Below, one piece after another: positions 6,237-36,603 of a DNA stretch of 64,000 bases. This DNA comes from Onthophagus taurus (Eukaryota; Arthropoda; Insecta; Coleoptera; Scarabaeidae). The stretch is from positions 12,896,001 to 12,960,000 of the forward strand of contig NC_091973.1 in the NCBI RefSeq assembly GCF_036711975.1. The letters run 5' to 3'. Both the position numbers and the translations under genes were made by a program. Within the stretch, counting starts at the first letter, position 1; every line of letters begins with the position of its first letter. A model generated the notes under the pieces. The model searched no databases and had not been told where the DNA came from. It saw only the letters and a program-made list of their open reading frames with translations.

Positions 6237-6722
6237 TATATGGTCGACAGAATTATCGGATCCAGAAGTGATACAAAAGTTCAAACATGGCTCAGAACGG
6301 CGTATAACGTCATAATATCACGTTTTGGGCACATTTTGTTTTTTATCTCCAACATGCTCCAATATGACATTTGGCGCCTGAATATCACAAATATGGTCAG
6401 CAGAATTATCGGAACCAAAAGTGATAGAAAGTTCAAACATGGCTCAGAATGGCGTATAACGTCATAATATCACGTTTTGGGCACATTTTGTTTTTTATCT
6501 CCAACATGCTCCAACATGTCATTTGGCGCCTGAATAACACTAATATGGTCAACAGAATTATCGGAACCAAAAGTGATAGAAAGTTCAAACATGGCTCAGA
6601 ACGGCGTATAACGTCATAATACCACGTTTTGGGAACATTTTGTTTTTTATCTCCAACATGTCATTTGGCGCCTGAATATCACAAATATGGTCAACAGAAT
6701 TATCGGAACCAAAAGTGATAGA
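6237..6722. repeat. ~152-bp satellite, short block 1
   Basis: About three monomers. The unit holds recognisable blocks in order: GAATTATCGGAACCAAAAG, TTCAAACATGGCTCAGAACG, GCGTATAACGTCATAATATC, GTTTTGGGCACATTTTG and CTCCAACATGCTCCAA. One monomer near 6640-6690 has lost about 14 bp. No gene. Confidence 0.95.
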
Positions 6723-7380
6723 AGTAGAGAATAAAGGCCGGTTCTGGACCGGAAGTGCTCCCCATCTCCCCCTGATCCTGCGCATGCGCGCCGGAAGTGA
6801 CGTCACGACATCCTTAAGGATCATCCTTAAGGATCGGTCGACGGTGGCGCCACCTAGCGGTACATCCTTAAGGATCGGTCGACGGTGGCGTCACCTAGCG
6901 GTACATCCTTAAGGATCATCCTTAAAGATCATCCTTAAGGATCGGTCGACGGTTGCACCACCTGTAGAATCCTTAAGGATCGGTCGACGGTGTCGCCACC
7001 TGTAGCATCCTTAAGGATCGGTCGACGGTGACGCCACCTGTAGCATCCTTAAGGATCGGTCGACGGTGGCGCCACCTGTAGCATCCTTAAGGATCGAAGG
7101 TTGCTCCCCCTGCTCCTTAAGGATCGAAGGATCGGTCGACGGTGGCGCCACCTGTAGCATCCTTAAGGATCGAAGGTTGCTCCTCCTGCTCCTTAAGGAT
7201 CGGTCGACGCCCCTTCAACCCCATCTTAGTGCCTTATTGACCCCCTTCAACCCCTTCAACCCCCTATTGACCTCCTTCAACCCCTTCAACCCCATCTTAG
7301 TGCCCTATTGACCCCCTTCAACCCCTTCAACCCCATCTTAGTGCCCTATTGACCCCGTCGACGCCGTATGCTTATCAGCG
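6723..7380. repeat. Left inverted terminus with subterminal CCTTAAGG tandem repeats
   Basis: The first ~100 bp are an almost perfect inverted copy of the last ~100 bp (10680-10779), containing GCGCATGCGC and TGACGTCA palindromes. Then come about ten copies of a ~38-bp unit with the palindrome ATCCTTAAGGAT followed by CGGTCGACGGTGGCGCCACC. From about 7205 a second tandem motif, CCCCTTCAACCCCATCTTAG, is repeated to 7360. The block is strikingly GC-rich against the AT-rich interior. Confidence 0.88.
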
Positions 7381-7587
7381 GAAGTTGCTCCCCCGTGAAA
7401 TAATATTAATAATAATAATAATAATAATACTTACCTTACAATAGGTTCTCCATTACAGATTGAGGGTAGGAGGAGGAGGAGGAAGAGAAAATCACAAAAA
7501 ATTAAAGTTAATACATATATTAAAAATTTAAATTAAACATACTCAAAAAAAATGATACTATTTTCTACTTAACCTACTTAAATATAT
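7381..7587. repeat. AAT microsatellite and GGAGGA tract, no gene
   Basis: A short run of AAT/TAA triplets lies at about 7405-7430 and an AGGAGGAGG purine tract at about 7470-7485. The remainder is AT-rich sequence downstream of the polymerase fragment. Confidence 0.7.
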
Positions 7588-8010
7588 TTAAACGTTATTC
7601 GAAATAGTGGTAAAATGACCCCAAGCCAATGTTTTAATACCATCGGTATCGATACACCGCTTTGTATCATGTGGGGAAAGGGCCAATTTGTTTTGTAAAA
7701 CGGTAAAAACCGTGTGGTTAAAACTTCTAAATAATAACTGTTTTCTAAACGCGATGGAATTTGAATGTAAACAGTCGAAATAACTTTGAAATGAAAGCTT
7801 TTGTTTAACCACAGCTTTCCTAATACCTTTAGATTTTTTAGTAACTCGTCCATAAGCGACCCGATTTGCGTACACCTTCGATCTTAAGCCAATAAATTCA
7901 ACCATTACGTTTCCGCAATTTTCATCTTTCAGTTGGTGCACTAGCAATTGGACGATCTTCTTGCGATACAAATTGAGAATAATTAGATATTCTATCATAC
8001 AAGTAACCAC
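7588..8010 (-). pseudogene. Polinton DNA polymerase B, C-terminal fragment (copy A)
   Basis: The 140-codon frame aligns from about residue 27 with the end of the polymerase of the large Polinton: KDE..G....EFIGLRSK.Y, then a KKSKGI (thumb, KxKG-like) block, then ALS..D.KR and a final WGHF. Exonuclease domain and palm motifs A, B and C are missing, so it has no activity. The first ~26 codons are not polymerase-like. It sits next to the left terminus, as the polymerase end sits next to the right terminus of the big Polinton. Similarity is clear but far from identical, so the fragment comes from another Polinton lineage. Confidence 0.85.
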
Positions 8011-8019
8011 AAAAACTTC

Positions 8020-8445
8020 AATAATAACAACACCACTTTATGAAACTTAACCGCAGAACGTTAATAAGAAAGTTTAGTACAAGAAAACTACTTCAAAACT
8101 TCAATTTTAAGCCTTATTCTTTAACAAAACTTAATCTTTACAAGAAGTCTAATAATGATTCAAAAAATTTAAGTGAAACTTCATCAAATCTTCATATTTT
8201 AATAAATTATTTGTATTTATTTAATGAAACTTCACCAAAACTTTAAAATTTGAGAATTAAAAATGTGAAATCTTAATAACTTCAATGACAGCGATGTTAT
8301 TTTATGAAACTTCATCAAAAAAGTTAATGTTTTAGTAAAAATTTGAATTTAATGCGAAAGAATCACCTCAAAACTTCAATATTTATCCCAATTTTGGGTT
8401 ATACGTCAAGAAAACTGATAAAATCAAATCAACTTCATCAACAGA
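8020..8445. repeat. AT-rich spacer with AACTTCATCAAAA-like repeats
   Basis: GAAACTTCATCAAAA-like words recur irregularly through this AT-rich stretch, and again at about 9480-9545 on the far side of the minisatellite. No coding signal. Confidence 0.55.
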
Positions 8446-9372
8446 TCAACAGATGTAGAAACAACAACCGATGTAGAAACAACAACCGATATAGAAACAA
8501 CAACCGATGTAGAAACAACAACTGATGTAGAAACAACAACAGATATAGAAACAACAACTGATATAGAAACAACAACTGCTATAACAACTGATTTTACAAC
8601 TGATATAGAAACAACAAACAACAACAGATGTAACAACTGATTTTACAACTGATATAGAAACAACAACAGATGTAGAAACAACAACCGACGTAGAAACAAC
8701 AACTGATGTAGAAACAACAACAGATATAGAAACAACAACCGATGTAGAAACAACAACAGATATAGAAACAACAACTGATATAACAACTGATTTTACAACT
8801 GATATAGAAACAACAACAGATGTAGAAACAACAACCGATGTAGAAACAACAACAGATGTAACAACTGATTTTACAACTGATATAGAAACAACAACAGATG
8901 TAGAAACAACAACCGATGTAGAAACAACAACTGATGTAGAAACAACAACAGATATAGAAACAACAACTGATATAGAAACAACAACAGATATAGAAACAAC
9001 AACTGATATAGAAACAACAACTGATATAACAACTGATATAACAACTGATTTTACAACTGATATAGAAACAACAACAGATGTAACAACTGATTTTACGACT
9101 GATATAGAAACAACAACAGATGTAACAACTGATTTTACAACTGATATAGAAACAACAACAGATGTAACAACTGATTTTACAACTGATATAGAAACAACAA
9201 CAGATGTAGAAACAACAACCGATGTAGAAACAACAACTGATGTAGAAACAACAACAGATATAGAAACAACAACTGATATAACAACTGATTTTACAACTGA
9301 TATAGAAACAACAACAGATTTTACAACTGATATAGAAACAACAACAGATGTAGAAACAACAACCGATGTTAT
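8446..9372. repeat. 18-bp minisatellite GATRTAGAAACAACAACY (copy A)
   Basis: About 50 units of an 18-bp repeat, interspersed with shorter variants (GATGTAACAACTGATTTTAC). On the plus strand one frame reads Thr-Asp-Val-Glu-Thr-Thr repeats, shifted once near 8610 by an extra AACAA, and ending in a TGA at about 9386-9388. On the minus strand a 316-codon frame reads Val/Ser repeats. Open frames on both strands follow from the repeat lacking stops; neither is a convincing gene. Copy A is 6 bp longer than copies B and C and has a different order of variants. Confidence 0.9.
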
Positions 9373-9399
9373 GGAATCATTAATATGAACTTTCAATCA

Positions 9400-10075
9400 A
9401 ATTAAAAAAACTTTATTATAATAAAATTTTAGTTTTGATCACGAAGTTTAATGTTAACTCGAAAATTTCATCGGAACATAATAAAATCTAGGAAACTTTA
9501 TGAAAACTTCAAATTATCTAATAAAACTTCATCAAAATGTTAAAAATGTATTCGAAGGAGGAATATTTTCGTCTTGAGAGACTTAAGGCTAAACCAGAAT
9601 GTTTTCAGTAATCGGTCTAGTGTTAGGTGTAGTTTTAGTGCAATAAAAATATGCAATATAGTAATATAGCTTTATACTAGTTCTAGTTTTATATTAGCAG
9701 TAGAACTAACACAAGACATAGAACTAGAATCATTCGGATTTAGCCGCACGTCTCTCTTAAAAACCTGAAATACCCTTAAATAGTCGTTATTTACCTGGTT
9801 ATTATCTAACATACATGACGTCGACTGAAATGTAAAACGGTAGCGATATATATATAATATAATATATATGGGAGGGAATAAAAGTCGCATAAGCACCATC
9901 TATGTTCCAATAGTTCATACATAAATTTCAAATAACGTCCAATGAGAGACGAAGGTGACGCTCGTATGATATGATATATTTCACACCCCCCTCCTTCTCA
10001 CAATAAATTTTACAACTATTATAATAATAATAAAACTACAATCAATTTTTATTTAAAAATTATTATATTTACGAC
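9400..10075. other. Spacer of the mini-Polinton, no gene seen
   Basis: AT-rich. It contains an alternating TATATATATAATATAATATA run at about 9846-9868 and AACTTCATCAAAA-like words. A 75-codon frame (9672-9899, minus) has no recognisable features and I do not call it. Confidence 0.6.
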
Positions 10076-10363
10076 TTAAATACAAGTAGCATTATGTTGA
10101 TTACATAAAAATTTTTGTAAAATTAATACATTGTTTTGTGAACATACTGCTGGAGAGCCGGTGTGGAACCAACATTGATTGGTGGTTGAATTTAATTTAA
10201 CCCCATCCTCTTCCGCAAATTCTAACGCAATATCAGTTATTAGTATTGAATTGCTGTTACGTATTTCCAAAAACTGCTTCTTTTGATTTCCCTTAACAAA
10301 TATTTGATCGTAGGAGGAAATTAAGGTATCAATTACATTTAGACCTTCTGATTGATTTCTCAT
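10076..10363 (-). pseudogene. Exonuclease-like Polinton protein, C-terminal fragment (copy A)
   Basis: The 95-codon frame matches the C-terminal half of the protein at 34096-34764 in spacing and key residues: IFVKGNQK against IFVKGSQK, then a Leu, a hydrophobic strand, a Cys, a C..H pair, a further Cys, and NV.IL.KFL. The N-terminal half with the D-x-Q-G-F motif is absent. A minus-strand ATG starts the frame, but whether it is expressed is unknown. It precedes the polymerase fragment, as in the full Polinton. Confidence 0.65.
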
Positions 10364-10429
10364 TATGACAGCGCCATCTATCGATCATCAGGTACATCTT
10401 TTAAAAAAAAATGGCTGCGTGTGAAATTA

Positions 10430-10779
10430 TTCTTTCTGCTTATTTCCGCTACCCGCCGCTTTTTTAGTTCCGCCGTCCGCCGCTAGGTGGCGCCACTGTC
10501 GACCAATCCTTCGATCCTTAAGGATGCACCGCTAGGTGGCGTCACCGTCGACCGATCCTTAAGGATGCTACAGGTGGCGACACTGTCGACCGATCCTTAA
10601 GGATTCTACAGGTGGCGCCACCGTCGACCGATCCTTAAGGATGTACCGCTAGGTGGCGCCACCGTCGACCGATCCACGATATCCTTAAGGATGTCGTGAC
10701 GTCACTTCCGGCGCGCATGCGCAGGATCAGGGGGAGATGGGGAGCACTTCCGGTCTAGAACCGGCCTTTATTCTCTACT
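10430..10779. repeat. Right inverted terminus with subterminal repeats
   Basis: Inverse of the left end. Five or so units of the CCTTAAGG / GGTGGCGCCACC repeat run from about 10480 to 10680, then the ~100-bp terminal inverted repeat. It has fewer units than the left side. Confidence 0.88.
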
Positions 10780-13700
10780 GATAGAAAGTTCAAACATGGC
10801 TCAGAACGGCGTATAACGTCATAATATCACGTTTTGGGCACATTTTGTTTTTTATCTCCAACATGCTCCAATATGACATTTGGCCCCTGAATATCACATA
10901 TATGGTCGACAGAATTATCGGAACCAAAAGTGATACAAAATTCAAACATGGCTCAGAACGGCGTATAACGTCATAATATCACGTTTTGGGCACATTTTGT
11001 TTTTTATCTCCAACATGCTCCAATATAACATTTGGCCCCTGAATATCACATATATGGTCGACAGAATTATCGGAACCAAAAGTGATAGAAAGTTCAAACA
11101 TGGCTCAGAACGGCGTATAACGTCATAATATCACGTTTTGGGCACATTTTGTTTTTTATCTCCAACATGCTCCAATATAACATTTGGCCCCTGAATATCA
11201 CATATATGGTCGACAGAATTATCGGAACCAAAAGTGATAGAATGTTCAAACATGGCTCAGAACGGCGTATAACGTCATAATATCACGTTTTGGGCACATT
11301 TTTTTTTTATCTCCAACATGCTCCAATATGACATTTGGACTCTGACTATCATATATATGGTCGACAGAATTATCGGAACCAAAAGTGATAGAAAGTTCAA
11401 ACATGGCTCAGAACGGCGTATAACGTCATAATATCACGTTTTGGGCACATTTTGTTTTTTATCTCCAACATGCTCCAACATGTCATTTGGCGCCTGAATA
11501 TCACAAATATGGTCAACAGAATTATCGGAACCAAAAGTGATAGAAAGTTCAAACATGGCTCAGAACGGCGTATAACGTCATAATATCACGTTTTGGGCAC
11601 ATTTTTTTTTATCTCCAACATGCTCCAATATGACATTTGGACTCTGACTATCATATATATGGTCGACAGAATTATCGGAACCAAAAGTGATAGAAACTTC
11701 AAACATGGCTCAGAACGGCGTATAACGTCATAATATCACGTTTTGGGCACATTTTGTTTTTTATCTCCAACATGCTCCAACATGTCATTTGGCGCCTGAA
11801 TATCACAAATATGGTCAACAGAATTATCGGAACCAAAAGTGACAGAAAGTTCAAACATGGCTCAGAGCGGCGTATAACGTCATAATATCACGTTTTGGGC
11901 ACATTTTGTTTTTTATCTCCAACATGCTCCAACATGTCATTTGGCGCCTGAATAACACAAATATGGTCGGCAGAATTATCGGAACCAAAAGTGATAGAAA
12001 GTTCAAACATGGCTCAGAACGGCGTATAACGTCATAATATCACGTTTTGGGCACATTTTGTTTTTTATCTCCAATATGCTCCAACATGTCATTTGGCGCC
12101 TGATATCACAAATATGGTCAGCAGAATTATCGGAACCAAAAGTGATAGAAAGTTCAAACATGGCTCAGAACGGCGTATAACGTCATAATATCACGTTTTG
12201 GGCACAATTTGTTTTTTATCTCCAACATGCTCCAACATGTCATTTGGCGCCTGAATATCACAAATATGGTCAGCAGAATTATCGGAACCAAAAGTGATAG
12301 AAAGTTCAAACATGGCTCAGAACGGCGTATAACGTCATAATATCACGTTTTGGACACATTTTGTTTTCTATCTCCAACATGCTCCAACATGTCATTTGGC
12401 GCCTGAATAACACAAATATGGTCAGCAGAATTATCGGAACCAAAAGTGATAGAAAGTTCAAACATGGCTTAGAACGGCGTATAACGTCATATCAGGTTTT
12501 GGGTACATTTTGTTTTTTATCTCCAACATGCTCCAATATGACATTTGGCCCGTGAATATCACATATATGGTCGACAGAATTATCGGAACCAAAAGTGATA
12601 GAAAGTTCAAACATGGCTCAGAACGGCGTATAACGTCATAATATCACGTTTTGGGCACATTTTGTTTTTTATATCCAACATGCTCCAATATGACATTTGG
12701 CCCCTGAATATCACATATATGGTCGACAGAATTATCGGAACCAAAAGTGATAGAAAGTTCAAAATTGGCTCAGAACGGCGTATAACGTCATAATATCACG
12801 TTTTGGGCACATTTTTTTTTTATATCCAACATGCTCCAATATGACATTTGGCCCCTGAATATCACATATATGGTCGACAGAATTATCGGAACCAAAAGTG
12901 ATAGAAAGTTCAAAATTGGCTCAGAACGGCGTATAACGTCATAATATCACGTTTTGGGCACATTTTGTTTTTTATTTCCAACATGCTCCAACATGTCATT
13001 TGGCGCCTGAATAACACAAATATGGTCAGCAGAATTATCGGAACCAAAAGTGATAGAAAGTTCAAACATGGCTCAGAACGGCGTATAACGTCATAATATC
13101 ACGTTTTGGGCACATTTTGTGTTTTATCTCCAATATGCTCCAACATGTCATTTGGCGCCTGATATCACAAATATGGTCAGCAGAATTATCGGAACTAAAA
13201 GTGATAGAAAGTTCAAACATGGCTCAGAACGTCGTATAACGTCATAATATCACGTTTTGGGAACATTTTGTTTTTTATCTCCAATATGCTCCAACATGTC
13301 ATTTGGCGCCTGATATCACAAATATGGTCAGCAGAATTATCGGAACCAAAAGTGATAGAAAGTTCAAACATGGCTCAGAACGGCGTATAACGTCATAATA
13401 TCACGTTTTGGGCACATTTTGTTTTTTATCTCCAACATGCTCCAATATGACATTTGGACTCTGACTATCATATATATGGTCGACAGAATTATCGGAACCA
13501 AAAGTGATAGAAAGTTCAAACATGGCTCAGAATGGCGTATAACGTCATAATATCACGTTTTGGGCACATTTTGTTTTTTATCTCCAACATGCTCCAACAT
13601 GTCATTTGGCGCCTGAATAACACTAATATGGTCAACAGAATTATCGGAACCAAAAGTGATAGAAAGTTCAAACATGGCTCAGAACGGCGTATAACGTCAT

Positions 13701-13805: not shown

Positions 13806-14670
13806 AGTAGAGAATAAAGGCCGGTTCTGGACCGGAAGTGCTCCCCATCTCCCCCTGATCCTGCGCATGCGCGCCGGAAGTGACGTCACGACATCCTTAA
13901 GGATCATCCTTAAGGATCGGTCGACGGTGGCGCCACCTAGCGGTACATCCTTAAGGATCGGTCGACGGTGGCGTCACCTAGCGGTACATCCTTAAGGATC
14001 ATCCTTAAAGATCATCCTTAAGGATCGGTCGACGGTTGCACCACCTGTAGAATCCTTAAGGATCGGTCGACGGTGTCGCCACCTGTAGCATCCTTAAGGA
14101 TCGGTCGACGGTGACGCCACCTGTAGCATCCTTAAGGATCGGTCGACGGTGGCGCCACCTGTAGCATCCTTAAGGATCGAAGGTTGCTCCCCCTGCTCCT
14201 TAAGGATCGAAGGATCGGTCGACGGTGGCGCCACCTGTAGCATCCTTAAGGATCGAAGGTTGCTCCTCCTGCTCCTTAAGGATCGGTCGACGCCCCTTCA
14301 ACCCCATCTTAGTGCCTTATTGACCCCCTTCAACCCCTTCAACCCCCTATTGACCTCCTTCAACCCCTTCAACCCCATCTTAGTGCCCTATTGACCCCCT
14401 TCAACCCCGTCAACCCCATCTTAGTGCCCTATTGACCCCGTCGACGCCGTATGCTTATCAGCGGAAGTTGCTCCCCCGTGAAATAATATTAATAATAATA
14501 ATAATAATAATACTTACCTTACAATAGGTTCTCCATTACAGATTGAGGGTAGGAGGAGGAGGAGGAAGAGAAAATCACAAAAAATTAAAGTTAATACATA
14601 TATTAAAAATTTAAATTAAACATACTCAAAAAAAATGATACTATTTTCTACTTAACCTACTTAAATATAT

Positions 14671-15093
14671 TTAAACGTTATTCGAAATAGTGGTAAAATG
14701 ACCCCAAGCCAATGTTTTAATACCATCGGTATCGATACACCGCTTTGTATCATGTGGGGAAAGGGCCAATTTGTTTTGTAAAACGGTAAAAACCGTGTGG
14801 TTAAAACTTCTAAATAATAACTGTTTTCTAAACGCGATGGAATTTGAATGTAAACAGTCAAAATAACTTTGAAATGAAAGCTTTTGTTTAACCACAGCTT
14901 TCCTAATACCTTTAGATTTTTTAGTAACTCGTCCATAAGCGACCCGATTTGCGTACACCTTCGATCTTAAGCCAATAAATTCAACCATTACGTTTCCGCA
15001 ATTTTCATCTTTCAGTTGGTGCACTAGCAATTGGACGATCTTCTTGCGATACAAATTGAGAATAATTAGATATTCTATCATACAAGTAACCAC
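14671..15093 (-). pseudogene. Polinton DNA polymerase B, C-terminal fragment (copy B)
   Basis: Same reading frame and residues as the fragment at 7588-8010; only the thumb and C-terminal end of the polymerase remain. The one substitution seen near 14857 falls outside its key motifs. Confidence 0.85.
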
Positions 15094-15528
15094 AAAAACT
15101 TCAATAATAACAACACCACTTTATGAAACTTAACCGCAGAACGTTAATAAGAAAGTTTAGTACAAGAAAACTACTTCAAAACTTCAATTTTAAGCCTTAT
15201 TCTTTAACAAAACTTAATCTTTACAAGAAGTCTAATAATGATTCAAAAAATTTAAGTGAAACTTCATCAAATCTTCATATTTTAATAAATTATTTGTATT
15301 TATTTAATGAAACTTCACCAAAACTTTAAAATTTGAGAATTAAAAATGTGAAATCTTAATAACTTCAATGACAGCGATGTTATTTTATGAAACTTCATCA
15401 AAAAAGTTAATGTTTTAGTAAAAATTTGAATTTAATGCGAAAGAATCACCTCAAAACTTCAATATTTATCCCAATTTTGGGTTATACGTCAAGAAAACTG
15501 ATAAAATCAAATCAACTTCATCAACAGA

Positions 15529-16449
15529 TCAACAGATGTAGAAACAACAACCGATGTAGAAACAACAACCGATATAGAAACAACAACCGATGTAGAAACA
15601 ACAACTGATGTAGAAACAACAACAGATATAGAAACAACAACTGATATAGAAACAACAACTGCTATAACAACTGATTTTACAACTGATATAGAAACAACAA
15701 ACAACAACAGATGTAACAACTGATTTTACAACTGATATAGAAACAACAACAGATGTAGAAACAACAACCGACGTAGAAACAACAACTGATGTAGAAACAA
15801 CAACAGATATAGAAACAACAACCGATGTAGAAACAACAACAGATATAGAAACAACAACTGATATAACAACTGATTTTACAACTGATATAGAAACAACAAC
15901 AGATGTAGAAACAACAACCGATGTAGAAACAACAACAGATGTAACAACTGATTTTACAACTGATATAGAAACAACAACAGATGTAGAAACAACAACCGAT
16001 GTAGAAACAACAACTGATGTAGAAACAACAACAGATATAGAAACAACAACTGATATAGAAACAACAACAGATATAGAAACAACAACTGATATAGAAACAA
16101 CAACTGATATAACAACTGATATAACAACTGATTTTACAACTGATATAGAAACAACAACAGATGTAACAACTGATTTTACGACTGATATAGAAACAACAAC
16201 AGATGTAACAACTGATTTTACAACTGATATAGAAACAACAACAGATGTAGAAACAACAACCGACGTAGAAACAACAACTGATGTAGAAACAACAACAGAT
16301 ATAGAAACAACAACCGATGTAGAAACAACAACAGATATAGAAACAACAACTGATATAACAACTGATTTTACAACTGATATAGAAACAACAACAGATTTTA
16401 CAACTGATATAGAAACAACAACAGATGTAGAAACAACAACCGATGTTAT
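15529..16449. repeat. 18-bp minisatellite (copy B)
   Basis: Same repeat as at 8446-9372 but 6 bp shorter overall, with a different order of the GATGTAGAAACAACAACC and GATATAGAAACAACAACT variants. The arrangement equals that of copy C. Confidence 0.9.
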
Positions 16450-17151
16450 GGAATCATTAATATGAACTTTCAATCAAATTAAAAAAACTTTATTATAATA
16501 AAATTTTAGTTTTGATCACGAAGTTTAATGTTAACTCGAAAATTTCATCGGAACATAATAAAATCTAGGAAACTTTATGAAAACTTCAAATTATCTAATA
16601 AAACTTCATCAAAATGTTAAAAATGTATTCGAAGGAGGAATATTTTCGTCTTGAGAGACTTAAGGCTAAACCAGAATGTTTTCAGTAATCGGTCTAGTGT
16701 TAGGTGTAGTTTTAGTGCAATAAAAATATGCAATATAGTAATATAGCTTTATACTAGTTCTAGTTTTATATTAGCAGTAGAACTAACACAAGACATAGAA
16801 CTAGAATCATTCGGATTTAGCCGCACGTCTCTCTTAAAAACCTGAAATACCCTTAAATAGTCGTTATTTACCTGGTTATTATCTAACATACATGACGTCG
16901 ACTGAAATGTAAAACGGTAGCGATATATATATAATATAATATATATGGGAGGGAATAAAAGTCGCATAAGCACCATCTATGTTCCAATAGTTCATACATA
17001 AATTTCAAATAACGTCCAATGAGAGACGAAGGTGACGCTCGTATGATATGATATATTTCACACCCCCTCCTTCTCACAATAAATTTTACAACTATTATAA
17101 TAATAATAAAACTACAATCAATTTTTATTTAAAAATTATTATATTTACGAC

Positions 17152-17439
17152 TTAAATACAAGTAGCATTATGTTGATTACATAAAAATTTTTGTAAAATT
17201 AATACATTGTTTTGTGAACATACTGCTGGAGAGCCGGTGTGGAACCAACATTGATTGGTGGTTGAATTTAATTTAACCCCATCCTCTTCCGCAAATTCTA
17301 ACGCAATATCAGTTATTAGTATTGAATTGCTGTTACGTATTTCCAAAAACTGCTTCTTTTGATTTCCCTTAACAAATATTTGATCGTAGGAGGAAATTAA
17401 GGTATCAATTACATTTAGACCTTCTGATTGATTTCTCAT
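17152..17439 (-). pseudogene. Exonuclease-like Polinton protein, C-terminal fragment (copy B)
   Basis: Identical in translation to 10076-10363. It keeps the VKG-x-QK block and the Cys/His pattern of the C-terminal half and lacks the N-terminal half. Confidence 0.65.
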
Positions 17440-17855
17440 TATGACAGCGCCATCTATCGATCATCAGGTACATCTTTTAAAAAAAAATGGCTGCGTGTGA
17501 AATTATTCTTTCTGCTTATTTCCGCTACCCGCCGCTTTTTTAGTTCCGCCGTCCGCCGCTAGGTGGCGCCACTGTCGACCAATCCTTCGATCCTTAAGGA
17601 TGCACCGCTAGGTGGCGTCACCGTCGACCGATCCTTAAGGATGCTACAGGTGGCGACACTGTCGACCGATCCTTAAGGATTCTACAGGTGGCGCCACCGT
17701 CGACCGATCCTTAAGGATGTACCGCTAGGTGGCGCCACCGTCGACCGATCCACGATATCCTTAAGGATGTCGTGACGTCACTTCCGGCGCGCATGCGCAG
17801 GATCAGGGGGAGATGGGGAGCACTTCCGGTCTAGAACCGGCCTTTATTCTCTACT

Positions 17856-24413: not shown

Positions 24414-24937
24414 AGTAGGTATAAAACAAGGCTATCTCTGACGTCAGAGGTAGCCGTAGTCAAGGACACCCTTCCCCCTCCACCTCCCCGGCTTTCAGCC
24501 GACAAGGTTGCCCTCTAGCGGCGGGTAGCTGAACTACACGCACGTCATCGACGCCGCCGCCGTCGCCGCCGCCGCCGCCGCCGCCGCCGTACCGACGCCG
24601 CTGGCGCGCGGGTTCGCGGTGCCGGATGGGCTGGTGCCGCGCGGAACGGGTTGGGCGGGTGCTGGGCGGTTGGTTGCCATACTAAATTTTTTGTTTATAT
24701 AAATATAAACAACTGACGTCGTTGACCGCAAAGATTGTGTTATTGCATAATAAGGAACTGTTGCGGTTACGCCAATGATAATAATAATCTACAAAGAATT
24801 TCCGACCGTTTGTTCGGATGCGGTGTCATTAAGTGAGACAAAAAAAATCGTTGGAGAGTAGTGTACGCATGCCTGAACATGAAGAAGGATTTTGTTTGTA
24901 GGATATTCACTGAATAAAGGAAAAAAAGAATTAGTTT
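24414..24937. repeat. Left terminal inverted repeat of the Polinton
   Basis: It aligns with the inverse of 40978-41467. There are interruptions: about 40 bp at 24482-24525 differ from the right side, and the GCC run is longer here. Homology stops at about 24937 after GAATTAGTTT. It contains a GC-rich short ORF. Confidence 0.9.
24534..24680 (-). CDS. Terminal-repeat ORF, Ala/Pro-rich, reading outward (left)
   Basis: From ATG at 24680 (MATNRPAPAQPVPRG...) 48 codons run toward the element end, with an eight-Ala stretch and a final SMTCV. A TATATAAATATAAAC sequence lies 20-40 bp upstream of the ATG. The right terminal repeat has the same ORF at 41242-41379; the two differ in length by nine bases in the GCC run, so the frame is kept. 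Sequence is very GC-rich against an AT-rich element. No family recognised; it could be a promoter-proximal noncoding tract that happens to be open. Confidence 0.35.
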   Translation of the reverse strand: MATNRPAPAQPVPRGTSPSGTANPRASGVGTAAAAAAAATAAASMTCV

Positions 24938-24969
24938 GTTGATTAACGTTCAATACGTCGGTAGTACAA

Positions 24970-25706
24970 TGGAACATGAAGCGTTGGAATCATCAAATTT
25001 TATAAGTAATTTGCTTATGGATTTCGAGCGACAAATAGCGGAAGAGTATGAATTAATAAATGAAAAGCGATATGATCTCCCTCATTCGTTGAGTATTGGT
25101 ACGGGTATCAGTTTAGCGCGCGGTGGATATCCTGTTGTGAAAATAGCTGCAAACAGTAAAAGAAAATGCATTCAATTGACATCGTACGAATGGGATAAAT
25201 TTTGGGAAATACATGAATCTAAGGCAGATCAACATTTACTTCAAAGAAAAAAGTGTTCTTCATGTAGTGATGTAATCGAGCAAACTGATTGTAAAGAAGT
25301 GCAATTAAGCACTTACTTAAATATATTTTATGGTTGCAAAAACACTAACCTTAAAAATCATAGAAAAATTATAAGGATACAATCTCATGGAACGGAATTA
25401 GTACTTCATTCAACAAGTTATAAAAATCTTAAGCAACTTCGTGAAATAATTACTATGCGATTACAAAGACTACATTTGATGAATTTCCCTATATATTACA
25501 CTAATTTAATACAATCTATCCTAACCAATCAATTTCAAGGCGAGAGTATGGCGGACTATATAAAAAGAATGTCAAGTCTTACTCCCTCACTCACTCCTTT
25601 TGAGGAATTGGAGTATCGAGAGTGTGCGCTCGAGATAATTAAGCTAATTCCGGATCAAATAAAGTCTGCTATAGGTGCTTTGAAAGCGGGTGATGTTTTC
25701 AAATGA
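24970..25706 (+). CDS. Polinton protein of unknown function 1
   Basis: The frame is open from 24936; the likely start is the ATG at 24970 (MEHEALESSNF), right after the left inverted repeat. About 245 aa. A motif near residues 55-85 (a glycine-rich turn, then KCIQLTSYEWDKFWEIHE) faintly resembles the beta-ridge of PC4-type single-strand DNA-binding proteins, where ISL.PEQW is typical; this is a guess. It ends in a TGA at 25704-25706, where the next ORF begins in another frame with a 17-nt overlap. The two may be one gene with a 1-bp slip in TTTT at about 25694-25697. Confidence 0.65.
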
Positions 25707-25932
25707 AGACTTCGTCTATATCATAGATAAGAAACATAATTTTGTAACATGTAAGGAATTGGAGAGCATTTGGTGTAAACTTTCACCAGAGAAGCAAGAA
25801 AAATTGAAATATCATTTACCCTGTTACAAACATTATAATGTTGGTGGTGGGGGTGATGAAATAGACGGACCTCCAATCTCTATAACAAAGTGTAGTGTAT
25901 GTGTTGAGAAGTGTGATATATGCACATATTAA
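25690..25932 (+). CDS. Small Cys-containing Polinton ORF, possibly the end of the preceding gene
   Basis: The 80-aa frame has a Leu/Lys-rich helix-like region around CKELESIWCKLSPEKQEKLK and a C-terminal Cys cluster (CSVCVEKCDICTY). It begins inside the end of the upstream ORF. Its first residues (SNEDFVYIIDKKHNFVTC) read as a continuation of the upstream protein if one T were absent. No known family recognised. Confidence 0.45.
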   Translation: MMFSNEDFVYIIDKKHNFVTCKELESIWCKLSPEKQEKLKYHLPCYKHYNVGGGGDEIDGPPISITKCSVCVEKCDICTY

Positions 25933-25960
25933 TTGTTTGAACGTTGTCGCGAGAAGAATA

Positions 25961-26386
25961 ATGAATTTCACCATATTTTACACAGTAATGCAAAGTACAC
26001 TACTCATCAAAGCACCTCAAACTACAAAAGAGGTATCAATTAGTTTCGATCCGGATTACACAAGAAAAGATCTAGATATAAAGTGGTTACCCATGAAGCA
26101 GATGATGGAGGAAGATGTATTTTCTATTATACCAAATTGTTCGCGTGAATCCATTATTACATTTAAAGCCAAATTCACTTTGGAAGATAATAGTATTATA
26201 ACCAGTAAATGGATTTCGGTATTATACGATATAGATTTAATTTCAATATGTTATAATAATATTGCGATAGTTATATTTGCTTCAATAATAATATTAATAG
26301 GAATTACATATAGTTGCATACTTTTATTTAATAATATTTATGAAAGTTGTATACAATTTGGTGTGATAATATTAAGCTGTGTATAA
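25961..26386 (+). CDS. Polinton membrane protein of unknown function
   Basis: The frame is open from 25895, but the ATG at 25961 (MNFTIFYTV) gives a product of 141 aa that starts hydrophobic. The middle has alternating beta-like segments (VSISFDPDYTRKDLDIKW). Residues about 97-125 hold a strong membrane helix (IAIVIFASIIILIGITYSCI), followed by another hydrophobic tail. It may sit in a virion or host membrane. It converges with the integrase gene, with about 60 bp between the stops containing AATAAA-like signals. Confidence 0.55.
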   Translation: MNFTIFYTVMQSTLLIKAPQTTKEVSISFDPDYTRKDLDIKWLPMKQMMEEDVFSIIPNCSRESIITFKAKFTLEDNSIITSKWISVLYDIDLISICYNNIAIVIFASIIILIGITYSCILLFNNIYESCIQFGVIILSCV

Positions 26387-26450
26387 AAAGTAGGATAAAT
26401 AAAGAACTTGATGAAAATTATCATATTTTATTTTATTGTTTTCGATTTAA

Positions 26451-27366
26451 TTACACAACATCATTTTTATTAATCCAGCTATTATGTGAAGAAGGAAACC
26501 CTAACCATTTAACGTAGGCTTTATTTTTCGATCGTTTAAGTATTCGTTCAATAAGATACACGTCCTTGAAATTAGTAGCTTGAAGTTCATGTTCATAAAA
26601 AGCACCCAAAATGGGATTATTTTCCATATCATTAAGCAGATAAGTAGGAGGATTTGTCATTTGAACTTTTCTTATTTTAAATAATTCCATACTCCAATTA
26701 GCTGTATACCCTTTTTCAAATAAAGATTTATGTTTACTAATACGAACCACCTGACCTACAATAAATTTCCCCACCCCAGCAATCTTTAGTTGAGTATATG
26801 CGCTATTTAACACTCGATCTACGTTTTCCCTGTTAACTTTAGAAGGAGCTAGACCTATGGTTCGATGCTTTGTATTGTTGTAGTGCTTAGTCACGTCTTG
26901 AAGTATATTAATCCAAACTTGGTTGCCCCTATACAGAAACGTTTTCTGTAATTTTTCTTTGAGCGTTCTAATGACTCGTTCAGCCATTGCTGCTTTCATG
27001 GTGGTAAATGTGGAATAATGGTTTATGTTATGTTTATCAAGCAATTTTTTTAGTTCTACATTATAGAATTCTTTTCCTGCATCAGTTTGAAAATTTTTCG
27101 GAATCCTTTTATCTTCAGAAAAAATGCTGCTTAATGCTATTCGCACATCTTTACCTGTCTTAGTCTTTAAAGCTCTAGTCCAGAGATATTTTGAAAAACA
27201 ATCAACAACAATCAATATATATTTATGGTTCTTATTGCTCTTAGCATGTGCTGACATGTCAATCCATGTCTAATCCTTTAACAATTGTTCGTCGTCTTAG
27301 AAAACGTTTCCTGGATGGTTTATGTAACTCTTCGATTATTTGCTTTCTTATGTCGATCTCATTCAT
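26451..27366 (-). pseudogene. int: Polinton integrase (RVE family, chromodomain) with N-terminal frameshift
   Basis: The main frame (26451-27257) has the retroviral-type integrase core, with catalytic D19 (VVDCFSKY), D59 (QTDAGKEF) and E93 (AMAERVIRTL) counted in that frame. A C-terminal chromodomain ends it (VYLIERILKR...YVKWLGF...SW). An upstream segment from ATG 27366 reads MNEIDIRKQIIEELHKPSRK..., the expected N-terminal linker, but runs into a TGA near 27257-27270; the core continues in another frame. So there is a frameshift, and a few expected codons also look missing at the joint. It would insert the element and create the 6-bp duplication. Confidence 0.9.
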
Positions 27367-27443
27367 GTTAATACAATAAAAGTACTTAATATAATGATAA
27401 TTTTGTTAAATAAGCAGCCTTTTTTATTCGATTAGGTTATATT

Positions 27444-28034
27444 TCAATTAATATAAATTATTAAATTAAGTTCGGTAGCTATGAGTGAAAAAGATTTTTC
27501 CATGCGTAATTTTAATTCATTGGTTGTATTTGAAATATTTTTAAGTTCATAGGCTACGTCTGATATTTTCGAAATAACATCAAGCATTTTATCATCCTGT
27601 TTATCTTTTATATATTCTTGAATAGAGATTTCGCTATCTTTCAAATTCTGCTTCAATGTATTCGTTAGATTCGAAATAGTCTTTCCCATATCTAATTTTA
27701 ATTGATTATGTTTTTCTGTTAACTCATTTATTTTCACAATTTCTTCATTGAGAAAATCAGTAGCTTTATTTAAATCACGAAAACCATTATCGTATATACG
27801 AAATACGTTATTGCAACGGGAAATCTCGCTTTTAAGACGATAATTTACTTTTCGAGCAAGTTTATCAACATAATCTTTTGTTGCAACATCATTCTCGTTA
27901 AGAGGATTGGATACATTACATATACGTTTGTTTTCTCCGTTTACATCTCCATCGTTCGTAATACCCATATGAAATCCTACATTGTGATATACAATTTGTA
28001 TAGTGTTTTCATGAAAGTTTCCGAATTTATCCAT
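27444..28034 (-). CDS. Fibre-like coiled-coil protein
   Basis: 196 aa. Residues about 28-58 hold RICNVSNPLNENDVATKDYV, the N-V-x-x-P-x-x-x-x-D-V/A-x-T-K-x-Y-V-D motif found in many tail-fibre and attachment proteins of phages and large DNA viruses. The rest is long amphipathic helix with Ile/Leu/Asn heptads (KINELTEKHNQLKLDMGK), suggesting a trimeric stalk. It lies directly downstream of the PX-like gene, one nucleotide apart, as part of a minus-strand cluster. A host-attachment or spike role is inference. Confidence 0.6.
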   Translation of the reverse strand: MDKFGNFHENTIQIVYHNVGFHMGITNDGDVNGENKRICNVSNPLNENDVATKDYVDKLARKVNYRLKSEISRCNNVFRIYDNGFRDLNKATDFLNEEIVKINELTEKHNQLKLDMGKTISNLTNTLKQNLKDSEISIQEYIKDKQDDKMLDVISKISDVAYELKNISNTTNELKLRMEKSFSLIATELNLIIYIN

Positions 28035-28035
28035 T

Positions 28036-29115
28036 TCAATAAATGATGTTTGCTTCTTTTAGTTCTTCTATTATAGATACAATTTCGTTATTATGAGATG
28101 TATTACCAGCTTGTTGAGAACTAACTAATAATCGCAGTCTATCTACAAGTTCATTTATATCATCAAAATATACGTATTGATAGGGTCTAGTATCTCCAGC
28201 TATTAAATTTAAAGATGAGGAGCTATGTCCGAATCCAATACGTGAACTGATTGCTGTTGCCGTCGACTTAGTTCTTTTACGAGAAGTGCGAGGCGTGCTG
28301 TCTCCTCCTTGACTATCAATCATCCGCTTTATAATGTTTCTATATTTAAATGATTTGTTACCCTTTATTTGCTCATTAGGATCATTATTACGTTTATGAG
28401 CATTTGTATCATTCAATATCTCTTGGTATTTATTCATATCATTTTCGCTATACTCCATAGGAATTTTTTTAAACAGCAATTCATATAGACCAGCAGTTCC
28501 TTTGTATTTCTTTTTAGTGGTATCAATAATTATATCGCCATTAGCATCAAACGTAACATTACTATTTCCAATGCTCCATGACTCAACGACCGGATCATGT
28601 ACAATACCAAATGTTGGATCATGAAAGTCTTCCTTCCCTGTTAATAAACCATGTATATACTTTCTAGGTAGTTCATGATATTGTTCAAGATATTCATTCG
28701 TTGATTCATGCGATATTTTCATTGGCTCCTCTTGTTTTCTTTCATCTGTTGAAGATAAGAAATATTCGGGTTCGTACGTGAATATTTCATCGCTCGCTTG
28801 AAGAGGTGAAATTGTCGGTTGAGTTTTATTTTGATTCAACGGTTCTGTTTTAAGTGGTAGCGGCTTAACGTCCTTCGTTTCAGTTTGCTCCGTTTTAGGA
28901 TGTTTTTTAAGCGTTTCAATTAACGTATCCAGAGGTTTAACTATTGGTTTATTGATACGTTCTAATTCTTTTTCTTGTCCTTCTTTACCAACTTTAATGG
29001 CTAAATATTTACGCCGAATAGCATCGCTGAGATGAATTATATCTGAATTCAATTTATCAGATTTTTTTGTTTTTAATGTCCTTTTAGGATGTAGCCGTTT
29101 CGTAGGTTTTTCCAT
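28036..29115 (-). CDS. Conserved Polinton PX-like protein
   Basis: 359 aa. The first ~130 residues are polar, Lys/Pro-rich and likely disordered. The conserved part is about 165-265, with YKGTAGLYELLFKK, then YSENDMNKYQEIL, TNAHKRN and a basic GNKSFKYRNIIKRM. This signature recurs in hypothetical proteins of arthropod Polintons (the PX type of early descriptions). A Ser/Arg-rich tract (RKRTKSTATAISSR) follows and the C terminus may be coiled coil. Function is not known. It sits between ATPase and the fibre-like gene on the same strand. Confidence 0.75.
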   Translation of the reverse strand: MEKPTKRLHPKRTLKTKKSDKLNSDIIHLSDAIRRKYLAIKVGKEGQEKELERINKPIVKPLDTLIETLKKHPKTEQTETKDVKPLPLKTEPLNQNKTQPTISPLQASDEIFTYEPEYFLSSTDERKQEEPMKISHESTNEYLEQYHELPRKYIHGLLTGKEDFHDPTFGIVHDPVVESWSIGNSNVTFDANGDIIIDTTKKKYKGTAGLYELLFKKIPMEYSENDMNKYQEILNDTNAHKRNNDPNEQIKGNKSFKYRNIIKRMIDSQGGDSTPRTSRKRTKSTATAISSRIGFGHSSSSLNLIAGDTRPYQYVYFDDINELVDRLRLLVSSQQAGNTSHNNEIVSIIEELKEANIIY

Positions 29116-29136
29116 GACTACACGAGCTATTTTTAT

Positions 29137-29832
29137 TTATAACAATATATACTCATCGAATTTGAATTTATAGCGTCCGTCTTTTATATCTCTATCTTTA
29201 TCGATAACGAGAAATCCTTATTTATTTTTCCAGCATAGATTACACATGGAATGAAAATCTTCAAATCTCATATCCGGATCAACGTGATTAAGGAATACAT
29301 GTTTAAGATTGCAGGCGTCTTGTTTAAATAAAATCATTAAATTAACATTATCTCGAATTAATTGTTTAGGTACCTTGGAATACGATTGAGCTAAATAAAA
29401 ACTATCAACAGAGTTATGTCTCCCCATGGAATAGAACTGTTGAATTATTTTCTGGTTGCTAAGGGAAACATCATCGAAAATAAAGACTGAATTAGGTAAC
29501 GCCTTATTCGGTTCAATTACTTCATCATTCTCTTTATAGGGAAAGTATCTTACGCCTTTCACTGCATTTAAAATATGTTCCAAAAACTTATACTTTGGTT
29601 GATATAGCGATTTTGAATAAACGTATACATTTTCAAACTTTAAACCATTAGGATCGAAAAGAAGGGATAGCATTACATTAGTTTTTCCACAATTACTAGG
29701 TCCTGCTATTATCGCTCGTATAGTGTTCGGTAACTGTTCTCCGTGACGTCTAGCTAACAACGAATTTTTTACTACTACTCGATCATCGATGTCGTGTACT
29801 TCAATTTGGTTTTTTACTTTTATAAGGCGCAT
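29137..29832 (-). pseudogene. A32/FtsK-HerA-type DNA-packaging ATPase with in-frame stop
   Basis: From ATG 29832 the protein begins MRLIKVKNQIEVHD. Walker A is GPSNCGKT (residues 44-51) and Walker B VFIFDD (116-121), followed by the Q-S-Y sensor-like region and the C-terminal H..D...DF block. A TAA at 29218-29220 ends the frame at 204 residues, but the same frame stays open for 26 more codons with residues typical of the family's C terminus, stopping at 29137-29139. Family members run to about 230 residues, so this is a nonsense mutation removing the last ~11%. Residual function is possible. It diverges from the phospholipase gene, with about 50 bp between. Confidence 0.93.
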
Positions 29833-29880
29833 CTTTATATGGCTACATGAGCTTAGTCACTAGTTGCAGAATAAGAGAAA

Positions 29881-30798
29881 ATGAAATTTATATATGCGTA
29901 TTACGGTGTTCTTCATGTTAGTATAATGACTAGAGACATCGAGGGAGGAGGTGTATTTAATTCCTTTATAAACAAATTACCAATAGAATTACACATTCCG
30001 GGTTATCAGTATTGCGGTCCCGGTACAAAACTCGCCAAGCGATTAACTCGTGGAGATCCCGGAATTAATTCTCTTGATAAAGCTTGCAAAAAACACGATA
30101 TCGCCTATTCGCAGAATAAAGATTTACATACACGACACGAAGCCGATAAGATATTAGAAGAGAAAGCGTGGAATAGGGTACTAGATAAAAATTCAAGTGT
30201 TGGAGAAAAAATAAGCGCTTGGCTTGTAACTAGCGGTATGAAAACGAAAAGGAAATTAGGATTAGGTATGAAGGAGTATAAACGAAGAAGGAGAGGGCTA
30301 CATAAAAATGGAGGCTCTGTTGCTTTTAATTCAAACGTATTGAAACCAATCAAAATTAAATTAAAATCGAAAAATTTGTCTAATGAAAATTTAAATAAGT
30401 ATGCGAAATATGCATTGGGTATAGCAAAAAAGACGGTAAAAAATGTTGGTGGTAAGAAAAAGATCCGCACACCTCGTATTATAGCAATTCCCTCCGTCAA
30501 TGGTAGTGGTATCGCTAGTAAATCAGGAGGTTTTCTACCATTTCTCGTACCTTTATTTGCTGGTTTGTCGGCCGCCGGTGCACTCGCATCCGGTGTAAGC
30601 AATGTCGTCAAAGCAGTAAAAGATGTGAGAGCAGCTAAAGAAAAATTTATCGAAGACCGACGGCATAACAAGGAAATGGAAGCGATAGCAATCGGAAAAC
30701 AAAAATCCGGTCAAGGTCTTTTTCTAAAACCATATCGCAAAGGATTGGGTTTATTTTTAGGAAACAAAAAATCAAAAAACTCTCGCAGACGCCCTTAA
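29881..30798 (+). CDS. Virion protein with parvovirus-type phospholipase A2 domain
   Basis: 305 aa; the ATG at 29926 (MTRDIEGGGVF) is an equally likely start. The N-terminal domain has the phospholipase A2 calcium loop YCGPGT (44-49) and the catalytic helix LDKACKKHDIAY with the His-Asp pair (72-73). Such domains open membranes during entry in parvoviruses and occur in arthropod Polintons and adintoviruses. Then comes a long Lys/Arg-rich region and, at about 218-245, a Gly/Ala/Leu-rich segment (GGFLPFLVPLFAGLSAAGAL) like the membrane-active or core peptides of adenoviruses. The C terminus is strongly basic. It is the first gene of the plus-strand capsid cluster. Confidence 0.88.
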   Translation: MKFIYAYYGVLHVSIMTRDIEGGGVFNSFINKLPIELHIPGYQYCGPGTKLAKRLTRGDPGINSLDKACKKHDIAYSQNKDLHTRHEADKILEEKAWNRVLDKNSSVGEKISAWLVTSGMKTKRKLGLGMKEYKRRRRGLHKNGGSVAFNSNVLKPIKIKLKSKNLSNENLNKYAKYALGIAKKTVKNVGGKKKIRTPRIIAIPSVNGSGIASKSGGFLPFLVPLFAGLSAAGALASGVSNVVKAVKDVRAAKEKFIEDRRHNKEMEAIAIGKQKSGQGLFLKPYRKGLGLFLGNKKSKNSRRRP

Positions 30799-30812
30799 CG
30801 GATGATATTATT

Positions 30813-31139
30813 ATGCGTTATGGGCGAGAAAACATACCTAATTTTAGAGGAGTGTACATGCGTCATACATTACCTAAAAAACCGCTTAAAAAGGAATGTG
30901 CAGTAGTTAATTTAGATTCAATTCAAGGATCTGGCACGCATTGGGTTGCATATTATAAGAATAATAATTTAGTGCAATATTTTGATAGTTTTGGTAACCT
31001 AACGCCTCCTAAAGAACTTCTAAATTACTTTGGACCCAATACAAAACTATTTTATAATCATAAGAGATATCAAAAATTTAATGCAGTCAACTGTGGACAT
31101 TTATGTTTAGATTTTTTAGAGAAAGTACATTTAAAATAA
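30813..31139 (+). CDS. Adenain-like cysteine protease
   Basis: 108 aa. The catalytic pattern is His43 in GTHWVAYY, Asp58 in YFDSFG, Gln87 and Cys94 in NCGHLCLDFL, as in adenovirus and Polinton maturation proteases. The frame is open a few codons before the ATG at 30813, so the N terminus is slightly uncertain. The stop of the upstream gene is 14 nt before it. Expected role is cleavage of capsid precursors. It is at the short end of the family. Confidence 0.9.
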   Translation: MRYGRENIPNFRGVYMRHTLPKKPLKKECAVVNLDSIQGSGTHWVAYYKNNNLVQYFDSFGNLTPPKELLNYFGPNTKLFYNHKRYQKFNAVNCGHLCLDFLEKVHLK

Positions 31140-31163
31140 GACCGTGATGAATGATCATTAGTC

Positions 31164-31880
31164 ATGTCTTGTACATTCACGTTGCAAGGCAGGAAGAATA
31201 TCCTTTCAGCCGATTATTATCCTCCTCTAGAATTGGAGGAAACATCGGAGTACGCATTAGGCTTGATAGGTCTATTTACGTACAATAGTATTCCAAATAT
31301 CGAGACGGGATGTAATAAAATATACTATGGAGGTAAAGGAGAATTTATCGAAATACCTACAGGTTCATATGAAATAAAAAACATAAATGATTACGTGCGA
31401 GAACAATTACTTAAAAAGACTAATAAACAGGATACGGATGAAGATCCTTTTATTAGCATTAAACCGAACCATAATACGTTGAAGTGTGTAATTATTTCTA
31501 AAACGGAAATAGATTTTACTAAATCAGATAGCATTGGATCAATGTTGGGCTTTAGCAGTAAAATAATAAAACCGGGAGTAATGAGCGAGTCTGATCAACC
31601 AATACAAATAATCAGAGAATCAAGTATACGCCTCGAGTGCAATTTCATAACGAGTGCTTTTTACGATAACGAGAGATCGCACACCTTGTTCGAATTTTCA
31701 CCTCAAGTTGCTCCAGGTTATGCTATAAATATAGAACCAAAAAACATTGTTTATTTACCTATAAGCAGTCGTAGAACGATCAGCAACATAACCTTGTCTA
31801 TTATCGATCAAAACGGTAAACCTGTGAATTTTCGCGGTGAGGAAATAGTTGTTAGACTTGAATTGAAGCGAATTTTATAA
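31164..31880 (+). CDS. Minor capsid (penton-type, single jelly roll) protein
   Basis: 238 aa, starting MSCTFTLQGRKNILSADYYP. The order of genes (protease, this, major capsid) and the beta-rich sequence, with ALGLIGLFTYNSIPNI near the start and IEPKNIVYLP near the end, fit the penton-like minor capsid protein of Polintons, which occupies fivefold vertices. Gaps to neighbours are small (24 nt upstream, 8 nt downstream). Open and apparently intact. Confidence 0.85.
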   Translation: MSCTFTLQGRKNILSADYYPPLELEETSEYALGLIGLFTYNSIPNIETGCNKIYYGGKGEFIEIPTGSYEIKNINDYVREQLLKKTNKQDTDEDPFISIKPNHNTLKCVIISKTEIDFTKSDSIGSMLGFSSKIIKPGVMSESDQPIQIIRESSIRLECNFITSAFYDNERSHTLFEFSPQVAPGYAINIEPKNIVYLPISSRRTISNITLSIIDQNGKPVNFRGEEIVVRLELKRIL

Positions 31881-31888
31881 AAAAGAAA

Positions 31889-32053
31889 ATGGGATTAGTA
31901 TTCAATTCATCATCTTGCGGATATAAAAACGTGATAAAACATCGTGGAACTATAATTGGTGCCGGGTTGTCTACCAAACAACATCAACGTTTAACCAACG
32001 AAAATAAATTGTTTTTAAAATCGCTTGGATTTAAAATTAAAGCCCAAAAATGA
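31889..32053 (+). CDS. Small basic protein between the capsid genes
   Basis: 54 aa from ATG 31889 (MGLVFNSSSCGYKNVIKHRG) to TGA 32051-32053. The stop overlaps the major-capsid ATG as ATGA. A Gly/Leu segment (IIGAGLSTKQHQR) is followed by LTNENKLFLKSLGFK. A short ORF ending in an LT.ENK.FLKSLG-like motif is, as I recall, common before the major capsid gene in arthropod Polintons. Role unknown; a capsid cement or core peptide is possible. Confidence 0.7.
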   Translation: MGLVFNSSSCGYKNVIKHRGTIIGAGLSTKQHQRLTNENKLFLKSLGFKIKAQK

Positions 32054-33279: not shown

Positions 33280-33283
33280 AAAA

Positions 33284-34764: not shown

Positions 34765-34826
34765 GAAGAAATGTTAAAGTGTACATGTAAGTAAATATAA
34801 TAAAAAACAATAAAAATTAACTTTTT

Positions 34827-35765: not shown

Positions 35766-35849
35766 TTTGAATCGTTACAGTAGCACAATACGGTAAGAGA
35801 ACAAACTATGAGAAACGGTAAACGATCAGGCGTATTTATATGAAGTTCA

Positions 35850-36480: not shown

Positions 36481-36521
36481 AATGAGGTTTTTTAAATTAG
36501 AACTATCTAATCCAAATAATT

Positions 36522-36530
36522 TCCTATATA
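36522..36530 (+). promoter_or_regulatory. TATA box before the 36604 gene
   Basis: CTATATAAACG lies about 75 bp before the ATG at 36604, matching the spacing of the TATAAATA before the divergent gene. Confidence 0.5.
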
Positions 36531-36603
36531 AACGCTGCAGCCTAGAGGATTTATCATTTGTCGAATATCACTACACGAGTTCACATTACAAATATTATTC
36601 ACG

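Follow-up and report, generated by a model that had tools for sequence, protein, structure and literature searches.

A probable 4-kb non-autonomous Polinton derivative in a satellite array of Onthophagus taurus, and its palindromic PolB relatives

A 64,000-nucleotide stretch of the Onthophagus taurus genome (C8:12896001-12960000, G000:C8; hereafter the window), from a genome of 291 Mb in 33 contigs, holds a 4,057-bp element at positions 6723-10779 that an earlier note had taken for a deletion derivative of a Polinton. We conclude with considerable confidence that this 4-kb element is a non-autonomous Polinton derivative that was inserted once into a satellite array and now stands in the window as three copies, most simply made along with the array. 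Its description as a deletion derivative is borne out by related ends on gene-bearing Polintons and by one joint located at base level.

The element has AG...CT termini (AGTAG...CTACT); its left end reads AGTAGAGAATAAAGGCCGG... and its right end is the reverse complement. The outermost 99 bp form a terminal inverted repeat with 1 mismatch (6723..6821, plus strand, and 10681..10779, minus strand; 98 of 99 bases identical), and a looser inverted match between the ends covers 329 columns at 82.7%. The target site duplication GATAGA stands on either side, identical at 6717..6722 and 10780..10785. The coordinates had been given exactly in the earlier note, which had also seen the inverted ends and the duplication. 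The window is largely an array of a 152-bp satellite, interrupted by insertions, and the intact site motif GTGATAGAAAGTTC occurs 112 times in it, so that the empty satellite site is plain.

A genome search with the first 98 bases of the element, in which 40 of 57 candidates were scored, placed matching termini at at least 41 places (77-100% identity), six of them within the window. From these matches, together with the 17-kb Polinton of the window (24414..41467, plus strand), which belongs to another terminal-repeat family, 15 end pairs were picked by eye and checked for target duplications. A perfect 6-bp duplication flanked ten of the 15, and all ten were different: GATAGA, GTCATA (the 17-kb element), TGTGCC, GAACCC, GACGAC, AATGCT, GTTATA, AATGTG, GTGCTT and ATCGTC. 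With equal base frequencies, the chance of a 6-bp match is 1/4,096 for any given pair. The shortest of the ten is a C3 element of 236 bp that consists of ends only (AATGCT), the longest a pair on C2 with its ends 70 kb apart; a C1 Polinton (TGTGCC) that has every main gene type, and whose terminus matches at 79% over the first 84 bp, is also among them. Taken together, the ends of the 4-kb element are related, not identical, to those of gene-bearing Polintons of the same genome (79-95%). Only a single insertion site was found for the 4-kb unit itself, part of which is also present on C15. The terminus search proposed in the earlier note thus gave gene-bearing Polintons with related ends and other insertions with different 6-bp duplications, but no further site of the 4-kb unit.

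Two of these loci are of interest in themselves. At C2:28923075-28992944 (L021/L022), Polinton-type ends lie 69.9 kb apart with the perfect duplication ATCGTC, and at C1:22138470-22154953 (L048/L049) a Polinton with identical ends of 2,004 bp sits in the same 152-bp satellite, at a different point of the monomer.

These data also bear on whether a DNA transposon of another superfamily (hAT, Foldback or Ginger) captured fragments of a Polinton. Foldback-like ends have long subterminal repeats, and such repeats are present here. Related ends nevertheless flank Polinton genes elsewhere, 6-bp duplications recur, and no 8-bp duplication was seen, other transposases not having been searched for. Such a capture is extremely improbable, and we reject a hAT or Foldback origin in particular on the evidence of ends, duplications and gene content.

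The element retains pieces of two genes, both on the minus strand, which we located by tblastn with Polinton proteins from other loci of the same genome. The first (7609..7935) is the C-terminus of PolB, 109 codons without a stop that align with residues 1250-1358 of a Polinton PolB of this genome whose 1361-aa frame is open (71% identity, E 6e-46). The second (10079-10378 in tblastn) belongs to a gene for a protein with a predicted DnaQ fold and a MAEL-like domain; 83 of 100 aligned positions are identical (E 8e-49), residues 77-172 of a 172-aa frame are matched, and the portion at about 10079-10358 precedes the deletion joint described below. Both fragments, and their order and strand as in the 17-kb element, had been correctly recognized in the earlier note. 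So had the difference in source lineage, since the proteins of the 17-kb element match the two remnants weakly (E 1e-4 and 1e-3) and a locus on C10 is closer. Searched singly against Pfam, neither fragment gave a family at E 1.

At a cut-off of E 0.01, the element gave no match to integrase, to capsid or protease (queried with the 17-kb and C1 proteins) or to ATPase (queried with the 17-kb protein only). PolB is reduced to the C-terminal 109 codons and thus falls short of the intact gene for a protein-primed PolB expected of a Polinton/Maverick. Because PolB is fragmentary and integrase and capsid genes were searched for and not found, we class the 4-kb element as a non-autonomous derivative and not as a full Polinton.

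Among gene-bearing relatives, the closest is not the 17-kb element but a locus at C10:15044253-15066003, which carries genes for the MAEL-like protein, major and minor capsid proteins, a protease, a PLA2-like protein, an ATPase and a partial integrase; no PolB was found in the pieces of this locus that were read. At its two ends, identity to the 4-kb element is 95% over 84 bases and 85% over 98 bases, and over element positions 3244-3639 (window 9966..10361, minus strand), which comprise the C-terminal part of the MAEL-like gene and downstream DNA, identity to C10 (L036) is 97.2%. At 10357..10362 the agreement changes sides: the element follows the second gene of C10 to about codon 79 and then continues with the DNA adjoining the opposite end of the C10 element, as base-level alignments to L036, L038 and L061 show. 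One large deletion thus brought the MAEL-like gene, broken at codon ~79, up against DNA from beside the other end. C15:6684524-6685098 carries this joint too, differing from the element over 180 bp by three substitutions and a single 3-base gap; across 578 columns this locus is 93.8% identical to the element.

The left half has relatives of its own. The PolB remnant, a spacer (7937..8321; 91% over 385 columns) and a minisatellite of 18/36-bp units (8447..9367) are shared, in the same order, with a broken Polinton at C6:31.78M, and the PolB remnant is 96.7% identical in DNA over 330 bp to C15:4478653-4484581. A 370-bp block at 9387..9756, partly a dispersed repeat, is 98.9% identical to C15 (L061) and 98.4% to C3 (L062); a query overlapping it gave 454 matches genome-wide. 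Tandem Repeats Finder delimited the minisatellite and three sets of shorter repeats: CATCCTTAAGGAT-type subterminal repeats (6809..7202), also seen in the terminal regions of relatives, of which some carry Polinton genes; CCCCTTCAA-type repeats (7210..7356), also in the relatives on C10 (L036) and at C11:10.12M (L041); and right subterminal CCTTAAGG repeats (10512..10675), also in the ends of relatives including C10. Since relatives carry the CCTTAAGG repeats and three of them (L039, L061, L062) the minisatellite, both are probably older than the earlier note supposed, and growth only after the deletion, as it suggested, is not supported. The locus at C15:4478653-4484581 (L033, L050, L051) holds an element with PolB that forms the middle of a larger inverted duplication of the chromosome; its flanks are inverted too.

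Such sharing is what speaks to a different history, in which a full-length Polinton entered this satellite position and decayed in place, so that the small size would reflect decay and not a mobile derivative. The 4-kb unit is known from a single insertion site, a 6-bp duplication shows no more than that something with such ends was inserted, and the genome has further Polintons with partial deletions. Against decay in place, the joint between gene and end recurs at C15:6684524-6685098, and the block of PolB remnant, spacer and minisatellite recurs in order at C6:31.78M; hence these parts either predate this insertion or were copied elsewhere. We judge decay in place to be unlikely, while giving it some weight.

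Gene order allows another reading, namely that the left PolB remnant arose when the PolB-side end was copied, inverted, over the other end, and does not reflect an original order. PolB and the second gene are on the same strand in the 4-kb element, the 17-kb element and the C6 locus. Among 48 PolB places and 40 second-gene places (the best of longer lists), 14 pairs lay within 20 kb of each other, of which two combine copies of the element with the neighbouring 17-kb-type PolB and one spans an 18-kb gap; all of the remaining 11 pairs have the two genes on opposite strands. Copying of ends is also in keeping with the 2,004-bp identical inverted repeat of C1, which ends ~90 bp past the MAEL-like gene, and with three PolB palindromes in the genome, described below. 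Yet a lineage marked by ORF214 makes such copying unnecessary: ORF214 is found at C10, C6 and C11:10.12M (C1 gave no match at E 0.01), and at C6 and C11 PolB follows it on the same strand. End-copying as the source of the left remnant appears to us doubtful. Because the strands are opposite in 11 of 11 pairs, the matching gene order speaks for either this particular ORF214 lineage or end-copying, and not for the Polintons of the genome generally. PolB is plentiful in the genome: of 648 first-look candidates genome-wide, 48 were scored, and 40 of these have no internal stop in the match.

Two further copies of the 4-kb element, missed in the earlier note, lie in the window on the plus strand. 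The second copy (13806..17855) is 99.5% identical to the first, and the third (50831..54881) is 99.9% identical to the second and 99.6% to the first. All three are flanked by GATAGA, face the same way and interrupt the 152-bp monomer at the same point; between them there are 4 substitutions, a 1-base indel, and length differences of 42 bp and 36 bp in the minisatellite. The surrounding sequence is repeated as well. A Gypsy-like element lies within bases 1-6237, a segment found again at 44109-50345 with a single mismatch, and each of the two ends of the 17-kb Polinton has a counterpart exactly 44,108 bp upstream of the copy in the window; a tandem segmental duplication of 44,108 bp thus carries the 17-kb Polinton, the Gypsy-like element, satellite and the 4-kb element. 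The left flank of the third copy is that of the first, identical over 3 kb, and its minisatellite resembles that of the second; this combination makes exchange between copies, or later change in the first copy, likely. With site, orientation and duplication identical, the three copies appear to be passive, and the simplest account is one insertion multiplied along with the satellite array. Three independent insertions into one satellite position are unlikely.

The history that we favour can be outlined as follows. The parent would have had the order end, PolB (-), ORF214 (-), MAEL-like gene (-), capsid genes, integrase (+), end. Besides the observed deletion, a second loss would have occurred between PolB and the MAEL-like gene, at the place now filled by spacer and minisatellite. 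The integrase of full Polintons, and probably their PolB too, may then have acted on the ends, giving a single insertion into the 152-bp satellite with duplication of GATAGA, after which satellite turnover and the 44,108-bp tandem duplication would have produced three copies. By analogy with other deletion derivatives, the element was probably moved in trans.

Several observations sit less easily with this history. Five of the 15 end pairs are imperfect (5, 4, 1, 0 and 0 of 6 bases), and the parent-like C10 locus is among four pairs without a convincing duplication. The opposite strands of all 11 listed gene pairs are unlike the arrangement in the 4-kb element. In the left half, deletion may have come after insertion, given that the 4-kb unit was not found inserted anywhere else and that C15 shares only part of it. 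Identity is a patchwork in which the PolB piece is nearest to C15 and C6 and the second piece nearest to C10, a pattern in the sequences that suggests recombination, for which a model of two deletions has no need. The patchwork raised the possibility of a chimera of two lineages, which we set aside as unproven, the C10 pieces offering no PolB for comparison.

More surprising than the 4-kb element are palindromic relatives built from PolB. Inverted duplications lie at C8:14204887-14220462 (L043/L044; duplication GAACCC) and C11:11124152-11139236 (L045/L046; GACGAC), with arms of ~6.8 and ~6.6 kb, respectively, that are 99.8-100% alike and flank a shared spacer. A third, at C4:2331042-2344160 (L065, L066, L073; AATGTG), was read at its ends and centre and shares arms and spacer; the start of PolB is absent from one of its arms. 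With 17-kb and C1 protein queries, PolB alone was found in the C8 and C11 palindromes, integrase and capsid not being found, and no integrase or capsid gene was seen in the parts of the C4 palindrome that were read. An integrase gene (L058) stands in the right flank of the C11 palindrome, outside it. The C8 palindrome has an open PolB of 1361 aa with DFES, NLYG and YMDTDS, which we take to be PolB motifs, and its second PolB is open too as far as two pieces show; in the C11 palindrome, the matching PolB frame is split at one point per arm.

The spacer of the palindromes holds an open frame of 166 aa (L043 8205-8705, minus strand) with weak Pfam hints below the cut-offs, and a 360-bp segment of it has matches at no fewer than 14 other places (81-94% identity). 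Inverted pairs occur elsewhere as well. At C22:700400-711700 (L071/L072), a 1.2-kb segment comprising the second gene and most of ORF214 is present twice, inverted, 99.2% identical and ~9 kb apart, and at C11:9427470/9436317 the MAEL-like gene forms an inverted pair.

The target duplications and the asymmetric shared spacer make a fold-back assembly error unlikely as the cause of the palindromes. They are most simply explained by a single inverted duplication that was then inserted three or more times, and the duplication itself may have arisen through template switching during protein-primed strand displacement. The C22 arrangement suggests, from its sequence, that the other Polinton end was duplicated as well, and with the palindromes, the C22 inverted pair and the 2,004-bp inverted repeat of C1, end-copying seems recurrent in this genome. 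Defective genomes of protein-primed viruses offer a parallel to inverted-duplication forms. As a tentative proposal, which we rate at somewhat below an even chance, Polintons may behave like protein-primed linear viral genomes that give rise to defective forms: the palindromes would have formed by end-copying and integrated at least three times with the enzymes of full Polintons, the 4-kb element would be a second defective form of that system, and the PolB-only palindromes would be parasites of the virus-like parent element, able to replicate themselves.

The second gene also deserves attention. In the 17-kb element it is intact (window 34069-34761, plus strand) and encodes a PPP1R15/DP71L-like PP1-docking region together with the DnaQ-fold, MAEL-like domain. 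Five matches to the docking family, PF10488, were found in the genome, of which four lie in Polintons of the 17-kb family, and a literature search for a Polinton with PPP1R15 gave no match in the library searched. The product has a predicted DnaQ/RNase H fold, so "exonuclease-like", as the earlier note had it, suits the fold but not the catalytic residues. The DEDDh set (PMC2628886) is incomplete, D79-x-Q81 replacing D-x-E and the alignment showing no invariant final H-x4-D. In that alignment of 6 sequences, the sole invariant E, H and C residues are E93, H104, H132, C201, H204 and C211, which follow the Maelstrom order E-H-H-C-H-C (PMC2628886). Comparisons of sequence with Maelstrom yielded no significant similarity: Pfam PF13017 (Maelstrom) did not match the Polinton protein, a protein search with host Maelstrom as query gave no matches, hhalign against host Maelstrom gave E 0.53, and the hidden Markov model score against Maelstrom was reached by 453 of 1635 reported shuffles. 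MAFFT joined 4 of 6 motif columns, as it did for 9 of 150 shuffles; an alignment with host Maelstrom did bring E, H, C, H and C into common columns, but the shuffles show that such sharing is not rare. Because this control makes column sharing not rare by chance, we claim a likeness to Maelstrom in predicted fold and residue order only. A Polinton protein with Maelstrom-type residues, fused in one family to a PP1-docking region, poses the question of whether it acts on host small-RNA or translation control.

Compared with autonomous animal Polintons or Mavericks, the 4-kb element has the same AG...CT ends, terminal inverted repeats, 6-bp duplication and PolB, the last as a remnant; it differs in that no integrase, capsid, ATPase, protease or intact PolB was found. 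Such ends and 6-bp target duplications are described for vertebrate Mavericks in PMC8097293, and PMC4028283 gives a usual Polinton length of 15-20 kb, against 4 kb here, and mentions an earlier proposal that Tlr elements are non-autonomous derivatives of Polintons. The titles and abstract openings returned by a literature search named no non-autonomous Polinton from an animal. For a member of this class, which the earlier note called rarely described, there are now a base-level deletion joint, gene-bearing relatives and different 6-bp duplications. With the C10 Polinton it shares a second-gene piece at 97.2%, ends at 85-95% and both sides of the joint, whereas C10 has kept many genes, contains a long internal stretch with retroelement-like frames and lacks a target duplication. 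Like miniature inverted-repeat transposable elements (MITEs) and other deletion derivatives, the 4-kb element kept its ends, lost its enzymes and presumably moved in trans, and the 236-bp element of C3 represents a MITE-like extreme; unlike them, its unit was found at one site and retains gene pieces and a large minisatellite. MITEs are under ~600 bp and of high copy number, and an element of 4,057 bp found at one insertion site is not one. The palindromic Polintons resemble the 4-kb element in their ends (~79% over 83-86 columns for C8 and C11), in their 6-bp duplications and in having no integrase or capsid in the parts read, and differ in carrying a pair of inverted PolB genes, one on either side of a shared spacer, and in standing at three sites of insertion. 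Their repeated insertion as an inverted-duplication form would tie Polinton replication to the defective genomes of protein-primed viruses, and they offer a living test of whether PolB-only linear replicons have descended from Polintons.

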